Shown here in pieces: positions 49,489 through 52,400 of a stretch of 64,000 nucleotides of DNA. Origin of the DNA: Centroberyx gerrardi (taxonomy: Eukaryota; Chordata; Actinopteri; Beryciformes; Berycidae); contig NC_136020.1 in assembly GCF_048128805.1 (NCBI RefSeq), positions 12,775,239-12,839,238 of the forward strand. Reading direction: 5' to 3'. The position numbers were made by a program, and so were the translations under genes. The notes under the pieces were generated by a model, which made no database searches, was not told the DNA's origin, and worked only from the letters and a program-made list of their open reading frames with translations. Each line of letters opens with the position of its first letter. Within the stretch, counting starts at the first letter, position 1.

Positions 49489-52400
49489 ATGAAGATGTTC
49501 TCCGTCGCTCACAAGACGGCCTTTGTGGTGGACCACTGTCCCTACATGGCTGAGTCTAGTCGGCAGCAGGTCGAGTGTGACGTGCTGACGAAGAGCCGAG
49601 CTCAGGGTGTCATACCTTTGGCCCCTGTGTCCAAGTCCCTCTGGACCTGCGCTGTGGAGTGCTCCATGGAGTACTGCCGAATCCTCTACGATGTTTACCC
49701 AACCAACAAACTGGTTAGCTTCTCTCGTTTTCTCTTTTTTTTTACCTTGGGCTGAAATTTGCTGGGTGAAGTTGCCCCAAGATTCCATTAAAACCAGGTG
49801 GTGTGTGTGTGTGTGTGTGTGTGTGTGTGTTGGGACAGGGGGACTCGAGGGCAATTAAATGAGCAGTGTTTTTCCTTTGTCTCTGTCAAAATGGAAGTGA
49901 GCAAGACATTTTACCCCTCTGCTTCAGTACAGCTGCACGGTTACTGCAGTGGAAGACTGTAGTTTCTTGTTGTATACATCATACCTACATGTGTGTGTGT
50001 GTGAATCCGGGCATTGCTAAAAAATAAAATTAAGGTTAATGAGGGGCAGCTTCACCCTGGAGTTAGGCCTCACACTGTTCCACTCATCACATAGTCTGCT
50101 GTATGTCCTTGTGCACCAGTGACGTCCCTAATAACCACAGCCTTGCCATTGAAAGTGTGTTGGTTGACATATTCTGCCACCTCATTATTTTACAGGTCAA
50201 TTACATTGTGAGTGATTCAGAGTTCCACATCTTGAATAGTTGGAGGCAGGAAGACCAGAGCACTCATGAGGTAATACGCTGCTTGTTGTTAAAACTCATT
50301 CACACAATAAAAATTGAAATTCTAATGCTAAGTTAATGTCCAGGATGGGAAATTTTTGCTCTACCTGCCACACTTGCTGGTTAATGTGGAGAAATGTCCC
50401 TCTTTGTGTTAGTAAGTGAAATGTCACATGCCAAAATGGGTGTTTGAATACAAGAGACTAAGTGATACATGAAATTGACAAATTTATCAGCCACCAGCCA
50501 AAAATGTGCAGTATTTGTGAAGCGTTAATTTTCCACCCTGTTATTGTCTTTTTTTTAAACGCATCACAGTTTTTACAGTGTTTTCAGCAGCCACCATTTA
50601 CCACATATGTGTATGTGATGGTGTACCACATACACCATTTTGGAGAATTTCTTTTTATAGTTGTACTTTTTTTGGTCAGGTGTCATAACTGATCTGTGTT
50701 TCCAGTAAACAACAGTGACCACATTTTGCAGAGGAATTGGACTTGCACCATGATTATGTGGTTAATACACGGCTTCTTCTTCTCTCTCTCTCTCTCTCTC
50801 TCTCTCTCTCTCTCTCTCTCTCTCTCTCTCTCTCTCTCTCTCTCTCTCTCTCTCTCTCTCTCTCTCTCTCTCTCTCTCTCTCTCTCTCTCTCTCTCTCTC
50901 TCTCTCTCTCTGGGGTAGCTCATGTCGGCTCTGGCAGCTGTTGGGCCACCTAACCCACGCGAGGACCCCGAGTGTTGCAGCATCCTGCATGGGTTGGTTG
51001 CTGCGGTGGAGTCGTTATGCAAAATCACCGAGTTGCAGCACGAGAAGCGCACCGCCCTGATGGACACGGCTGAGAGGGTTGCCAATAGGGGCCGTATTAT
51101 CTGTCTCACCAACGCTAAAAGGTAAACAGAGTAGGGAATAAAACACCAGCCATTGACCAAAAGTTCTACTAATCAATTTGGCTGGTAAAAGAATGTAAGT
51201 GGCTTGTTCATTTTGAGATTTACCTGCCACAGTTTTTTTTCTCTCACAATTTCAGGATTTTTTTGACACAAAACTCCCACATAATTTCTGATGGAGATCT
51301 TTGTTTTCCTTCATTTACCACGTTATACTGTGCTTTGTGTTGCTCTGATTACATGCGCTGTTTCCCCTACATTCATTCAGCAGCAGTTGCTCCGCTCTTC
51401 TCGAAAAACTACCTACTGTTAGAAAAATGTAAAATAAGTTCAGAATCTACCTCATAGCTCACCCAAAACAAACAAATATAGGGACATTGCATTTCATTTA
51501 GTTTATATACTGTAGTACGCAAATCAGAATCGCTTCACCAAGTCCAACAGGTGTGCAAGGAATTTGACTTGGTTGATTGGAGCTGGAACATTACAGAATT
51601 TACACACTAGATGTAGTACAAAACTCTCCCATATAGTGCAGACACAGTGCAGACTGGAAATGCAGTAGTCCAGTGTACCGAGGTCCAATCTGACTGCAAC
51701 AGGTTCTGAAACAGACAAGGGGAAAAAGACTTGGAGAGGACCTAGATCCCCGGATGGAAATTTCCCTGATCCCCCTCACTGCTGAAAACATGTCTAGAGA
51801 AAACACTGAGATCCCAGGGAAGAGCAACTGGCTGTGAAGTTCATTGATCCTTGAAGCCAGTAAATTACTGGCTGTTCCCTACTCTGGTGGGTTAGGATTA
51901 GACTGTGAAACAGTACGGAGTTGTAAAGCCCCAAAGAATTGATTGAAAATTGAGCACAATTTTATACAAAATTACATGAAATCAGAAATTCCCTCTTTGT
52001 GTTTGTAAGTGAATATAAATATGTGCCTCCATAAAAATTTGTGTTGTCAGTGTTTTGTATGTTGGGTGTGTGTGCTTTATGTTATGATCTTTATTTAGCC
52101 CATCAGTTGATAATATATATGAGAAGCTCTCCGCATGCATTTTATCGCTTTTATCAAAGATTGTGCCAATGCCATATTCTTTTTGTGTGAATTCTACAGT
52201 GATACTCATGTGCGCATGTTGGAAGACTGCATCCAGGAAACCATTTTAGAGCAAAACAAGCTGGCAGCAGGCTCAGACAGGTCAGTAATAGAGGATGTGT
52301 GATGAAAATGATATATATGTGTGTTAGCATTTATCTCTGACTGACTGACTGGTTACAATGATGTTGCTTTGAATGTGCTGGTAATTGCGTTGGATACCAG

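Follow-up and report, generated by a model that had tools for sequence, protein, structure and literature searches.

Ninety percent of mapped human branch points are located at -19 to -37, as quoted in PMC6339879. Exons with verified distant branch points are described in PMC1431707, namely those of rat alpha-tropomyosin and alpha-actinin, together with PTB exon 11, for which some in vitro evidence is given. In the verified cases, the branch motif marks the 5' end of a long AG-free zone, and the first AG to follow serves as the acceptor. According to the same source, human exons with AG exclusion zones of at least 100 nt undergo more alternative splicing, and for zones of at least 150 nt the observed cassette use is 32.5% (197 exons), versus 19.8% overall. 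Human data in PMC2991248 indicate in addition that distant branch points typically come with a long pyrimidine tract, and that skipping rises with distance. Simple repeats whose length alters the use of an acceptor are known as well. In the merle PMEL gene of the dog, a poly(T) serves as the polypyrimidine tract and at the same time lengthens the distance between branch point and acceptor (PMC7349775), and the human spliceSTRs of the preprint PMC13174678 have T-rich units and are enriched within 100 bp upstream of the affected exons. Finally, as reported in PMC6339879, G-tracts located between the pyrimidine tract and the AG (the REPA class) lower U2AF65 binding and site use via hnRNP H/F, accompany more distant branch motifs, zebrafish included, and go together with an enrichment of G at +1.

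Here we describe an acceptor in the ints13 gene of the fish Centroberyx gerrardi, contained in a window of 64,000 nucleotides (NC_136020.1, positions 12,775,239 to 12,839,238; coordinates below are those of the window), which resembles each of these systems in part. Like the exons of PMC1431707, it has a long AG-free interval and a long pyrimidine tract, and it may share with them a branch motif toward the 5' end of this interval; unlike them, its interval is mostly one perfect A-free dinucleotide microsatellite, and its branch point and any regulation are putative. As in dog merle PMEL (PMC7349775), a simple repeat forms the polypyrimidine tract and would enlarge the branch-point-to-acceptor distance. 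The merle case, however, has a SINE-derived poly(T) that varies in length, a competing cryptic acceptor and a known phenotype, whereas ints13 has a TC repeat at a native acceptor. With the human spliceSTRs (PMC13174678) it shares a short tandem repeat in or beside the polypyrimidine tract that is proposed to act by its length; population association is a feature of the spliceSTRs, while the ints13 repeat is known from one assembly. The likeness to the REPA class (PMC6339879) consists in a GGG between the pyrimidine tract and the AG and in the lack of a branch A near the AG. The differences from that class are a tract made of a repeat, a C at +1 in place of the enriched G, and a branch candidate, TTAAT, that is not CTGAC and is absent from the five top branch motifs listed in that paper.

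Distant-branch-point exons and tract microsatellites that lengthen the spacing, as in merle, are thus both already published, and the ints13 case combines known kinds. Among the matches listed from the open-access literature, we recognised none on a TC/CT microsatellite making a distant branch point and none on a perfect dinucleotide repeat that makes up most of a branch point-acceptor interval in an essential gene; the publications listed on INTS13 together with alternative splicing or exon skipping included none about exon 4, as judged by title or abstract start. Our main conclusion is that intron 3 of ints13 likely ends in a distant-branch-point acceptor produced by a microsatellite, which works at its present length and is probably weakened.

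The ints13 gene and the repeat at its intron 3 acceptor

The gene model comprises 16 coding exons on the + strand, from 49489 to the end of the stop codon at 63187, which join into one open frame of 701 residues. The alignment of the spliced product with human INTS13 (chain 8rbx_m) runs from end to end and scores 1293.8 bits, and the product matches the Pfam profile Mat89Bb (PF10221) at 973 bits; this similarity identifies the gene as INTS13 throughout. Exon numbering assumes a non-coding exon 1, and exon 4 is the third coding exon in the gene model. Exon 3 (50196..50270, 75 nt) ends at a codon boundary (GAG), intron 3 (50271..50918, 648 nt) runs from the donor GAG/gtaata to the acceptor ggggtag/CTC, and exon 4 (50919..51121, 203 nt) is defined by both the gene model and the human alignment. 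Across the exon 3/4 junction, the human residues QELMAALAAV align without a gap to ten residues of this gene. Because the junction is contiguous with human INTS13, the AG at 50917-50918 is the acceptor that the protein needs. A search for relatives of exon 4 in viral contigs returned 40 pattern matches, none of which was confirmed.

A perfect (TC)65.5 microsatellite occupies 50781-50911 of the + strand (131 nt, 100% matches and 0 indels by Tandem Repeats Finder). It forms the greater part of a 139-nt stretch of pyrimidines without interruption (50773-50911), which stops 7 nt short of the start of exon 4 at 50919. Between repeat and exon lies GGGGTAG (50912-50918), so that five bases, GGGGT, separate the repeat from the AG; the GGGG at 50912-50915 stands between tract and AG in the arrangement known from REPA G-tracts, and the acceptor TAG takes up 50916-50918. 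An earlier note on this DNA had described a 132-nt TC microsatellite acting as the polypyrimidine tract of a conserved exon. The repeat is present and perfect, but it measures 131 nt, not 132; its role as the tract of a conserved exon is borne out.

Among 200 copies of the window generated with a first-order Markov model, pyrimidine runs reached at most 21 nt and pure dinucleotide runs at most 12 nt. The TC tract lies far above these maxima and is therefore not explained by chance base order. It is also the sole pure TC/CT run of at least 20 nt on the + strand of the window. A perfect (AG)24.5 repeat at 27059-27107 (+) lies downstream of the last recognised - strand anoctamin exon; considered as a second TC tract at an acceptor, it was rejected, as it adjoins no recognised exon.

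AC/GT repeats reportedly act as splicing aids in fish, for which a duplex-bridging model is said to apply. For the TC repeat, such a model is unsupported, since there is neither a special fold nor an inverted-repeat partner. The predicted RNA fold at 50700-50960 is unremarkable (z = 1.05, with 170 of 200 shuffled sequences folding as well or better). Pairing with a complementary arm was rejected, as none of the 12 pairs of inverted repeats of at least 12 nt found in 49400-53000 involves the repeat. Likewise, no Rfam family matched at the gathering threshold in 44000-64000.

Spacing between branch point and acceptor

We characterized each acceptor by two measures, the AG exclusion zone, taken as the distance back to the next AG while ignoring AGs in about the last 12 nt, and the distance to the closest A upstream of the last 12 nt. 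In the case of intron 3, the AG spacing scan gave a zone of 183 nt (50734..50916, +), which exceeds the 100-150 nt criterion for distant-branch-point exons and is the longest gap between neighbouring AGs on the + strand of the window (n = 4304 AGs). No AG occurs within the TC tract. The base scan gave an A-free interval of 147 nt (50770-50916), again a maximum for the + strand of the window. Apart from that of the acceptor AG itself, there is no A in the last 40-50 nt of the intron, the usual branch-point distance, and the nearest A to the acceptor is 149 nt away. Any adenosine branch point is therefore confined to 50769 or earlier, 149 nt or more from the acceptor, because 50770-50916 contains no A. 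The branch point is thus probably unusually far from exon 4.

The sole YTNAY motif in the AG exclusion zone is TTAAT at 50762-50766, whose candidate branch base, A50765, lies 32 nt into the 183-nt zone and 153 nt from the acceptor G. Since chance alone would give about 0.8 YTNAY motifs per 40 nt, the motif is insufficient to prove a branch site, and taken alone it is weak evidence; the strength of the argument lies in the lack of any A from 50770 to 50916. The earlier note had viewed the repeat as a landing site for U2AF and PTB. This account proved incomplete, as the A-free repeat, besides serving as the polypyrimidine tract, also sets the spacing between an adenosine branch point and the AG. 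Spacing is in fact the more direct consequence of repeat length, because a repeat that contains no A keeps any adenosine branch point upstream of it.

Comparison with 24 other acceptors from the window sets intron 3 well apart. The 14 other ints13 acceptors have AG exclusion zones of 15-73 nt, all below the 183 nt of intron 3, and nearest-A distances of 16-34 nt versus 149 nt; the longest pyrimidine run in the last 60 nt of their introns is 4-12 nt. A GGG at -15 to -3 is found at one of the 15 ints13 acceptors, namely that of intron 3. Ten further acceptors were taken from the - strand, from exons with clear peptides in two other genes rather than every exon of either: nine are read as belonging to a single anoctamin gene, with Pfam applied to one of their peptides, and the tenth is an exon of a ubiquitin-conjugating enzyme (by Pfam). 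Their AG exclusion zones are 16-107 nt (10 of 10 below 183) and their nearest A lies at 14-56 nt, ranges that span all candidates listed, as there are two or more candidate AGs at five of the ten. Both the spacing and the AG exclusion zone of intron 3 are therefore the largest among the 25 acceptors. The second largest values belong to the ubiquitin-conjugating enzyme acceptor at 10372 (-), whose AG-free zone measures 104 or 107 nt and whose closest A is 53 or 56 nt away.

On the - strand of the window as a whole, two AG-free gaps are longer than that of intron 3 (700 and 210 nt), and so is one A-free run (281 nt, 493-773). The 700-nt gap and the 281-nt run fall in an AG-rich low-complexity stretch near 495-1185. 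This stretch is built of an AGAGG unit (135.6 copies, 73% match).

We also considered whether the donors flanking exon 4 are unusually weak. Scored against a donor consensus, the exon 3 donor reaches 1.9 and the exon 4 donor 3.1; neither is an outlier among the 15 ints13 donors, and the idea was rejected.

Proposed mechanism and its predicted consequences

We propose that a perfect TC microsatellite expanded within the polypyrimidine tract of intron 3 and that it now takes up almost the whole branch point-acceptor interval (131 of about 153 nt). Because the repeat has neither A nor AG, the branch point would be left upstream of it, and we infer that A50765 is probably the one used. The acceptor would then be located by a scan through about 150 nt of AG-free RNA that ends at the first AG it meets (50917-50918), and the length of the repeat would directly set the branch-point-to-acceptor spacing. 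As CUCUCU is recognised by all four RRMs of PTB (PMC4117754), (UC)n RNA would be an optimal PTB ligand, and it would presumably serve as a U2AF landing site as well. The GGGG beside the AG probably weakens U2AF binding, and silencing by hnRNP H/F is possible there by likeness to the REPA class. Transcripts skipped at such a weakened site would meet a TGA and be degraded, resulting in less INTS13 and not in another protein. Taken with the data from other species, this architecture suggests an intron 3 acceptor that is working but weakened.

The reading frame bears on what missplicing would do. Exon 4, with 203 nt, leaves a remainder of 2 on division by three, and exon 3 ends on a codon boundary. 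Skipping of exon 4 consequently shifts the frame, as had been claimed before, and the first codon past the junction, supplied by exon 5 (52200..52280, +), is TGA, which places a stop directly at the junction after residue 100. Among the 14 internal exons tested (3 to 16), seven of which are multiples of three, exon 4 alone gives such a zero-codon stop on skipping; for exon 16 no stop was found, as the gene model ends just past the normal stop. Retention of intron 3 leads to a stop after 21 further codons. The CAG at 50935-50937 in exon 4 gives no indication of serving as an acceptor; its use would shorten the exon by 19 nt and shift the frame, with a stop after residue 140, and some deeper AGs in exon 4 would preserve the frame if used. 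Because skipping, retention and use of the CAG all give stops, the repeat, if it has an effect, would most likely act on dosage, with the exon 4-skipped mRNA expected to be lost to decay. Every functional ints13 mRNA presumably contains exon 4; the acceptor therefore works well enough at its present length.

Whether repeat length matters for inclusion is a question of effect size, and the two readings that differ on it both rest atop the distant-branch-point architecture. Microsatellites of this kind are, as a rule, hypervariable. Should the length of this one vary between individuals, it could act as a splicing rheostat, tuning exon 4 inclusion through spacing and the balance of PTB and U2AF, and hence INTS13 dosage. 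We regard this as unlikely. The long A-free and AG-free spacer and the immediate stop on exon 4 skipping are what such tuning would build on, and both the length-dependent acceptor use in dog merle PMEL (PMC7349775) and the enrichment of human spliceSTRs within 100 bp upstream of affected exons (PMC13174678, a preprint) point the same way. The tract, however, has no AG and hence no competing acceptor inside, and distant branch points of more than 150 nt, predicted or verified, are described for human and rat genes in PMC1431707, indicating that such spacing can work. The far-reaching form of this reading, in which a fast-mutating repeat as near-whole spacer gives heritable, graded exon 4 inclusion, INTS13 dosage and Integrator-dependent RNA processing among individuals, appears less likely still. 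To the reading of a neutral passenger, in which slippage lengthened an ordinary tract while its length leaves splicing unaffected and exon 4 is almost fully included whatever the allele, we give about even chances. CU-rich tracts are natural seeds for TC slippage, ints13 is otherwise intact across its 701 residues, and the fold of the repeat RNA is nothing special (z = 1.05). Speaking against neutrality, none of the other 24 acceptors reaches the spacing or the AG exclusion zone of intron 3, and skipping increases with such distance in the human data of PMC2991248.

Two further readings concern the architecture itself. A U or C of the (UC)n tract near the acceptor could be used as the branch base, leaving the spacing normal. 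CUCUC matches the YTNAY frame except for the branch base, and non-A branch points have been reported, but they are rare, and the AG-free sequence upstream offers a motif that contains an A; we hold this reading to be very improbable. PMC1431707 describes a human exon in which a 369-nt zone stems from a repetitive element alone and a good branch site sits at -17; as there is no A near the acceptor of intron 3, an escape of this type would need a non-A branch point here. We likewise attach very little probability to an assembly artefact that collapsed or inflated the tract. Long pure dinucleotides are error-prone in many assemblies, and the perfection of the run leaves its length unproven even as it speaks against such an error. 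Yet even a tract of 60 nt would be far above the 4-12 nt runs of the 14 other ints13 acceptors.

The microsatellite-made distant-branch-point acceptor is of interest whatever the effect of its length. If repeat length alters inclusion, the locus would offer a natural length series for the effects of spacing and tract length on splicing in vivo, in which no new branch points or acceptors arise as length changes, the repeat having neither A nor AG. If length has no effect, a vertebrate acceptor would tolerate about 150 nt of near-pure repeat in a gene that needs splicing. Either way, exon 4 deserves a flag for splice predictors that see only about 50 nt upstream.

Two GT-type repeats were observed elsewhere in the gene. 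A (GT)15 repeat at 49801-49830 in intron 2 is located some 88 nt downstream of the exon 2 donor (gttagc). At exon 13 (region 59814-59873), a (TG) tract at 59824-59873 begins 10 nt past the donor GAG/gtatta, which scores lowest of the 15 ints13 donors by the consensus used above. The pUG fold needs 12 G according to PMC12636285, and each of the two tracts has at least 12. The (UG)n element beside the weak exon 13 donor might assist that donor.
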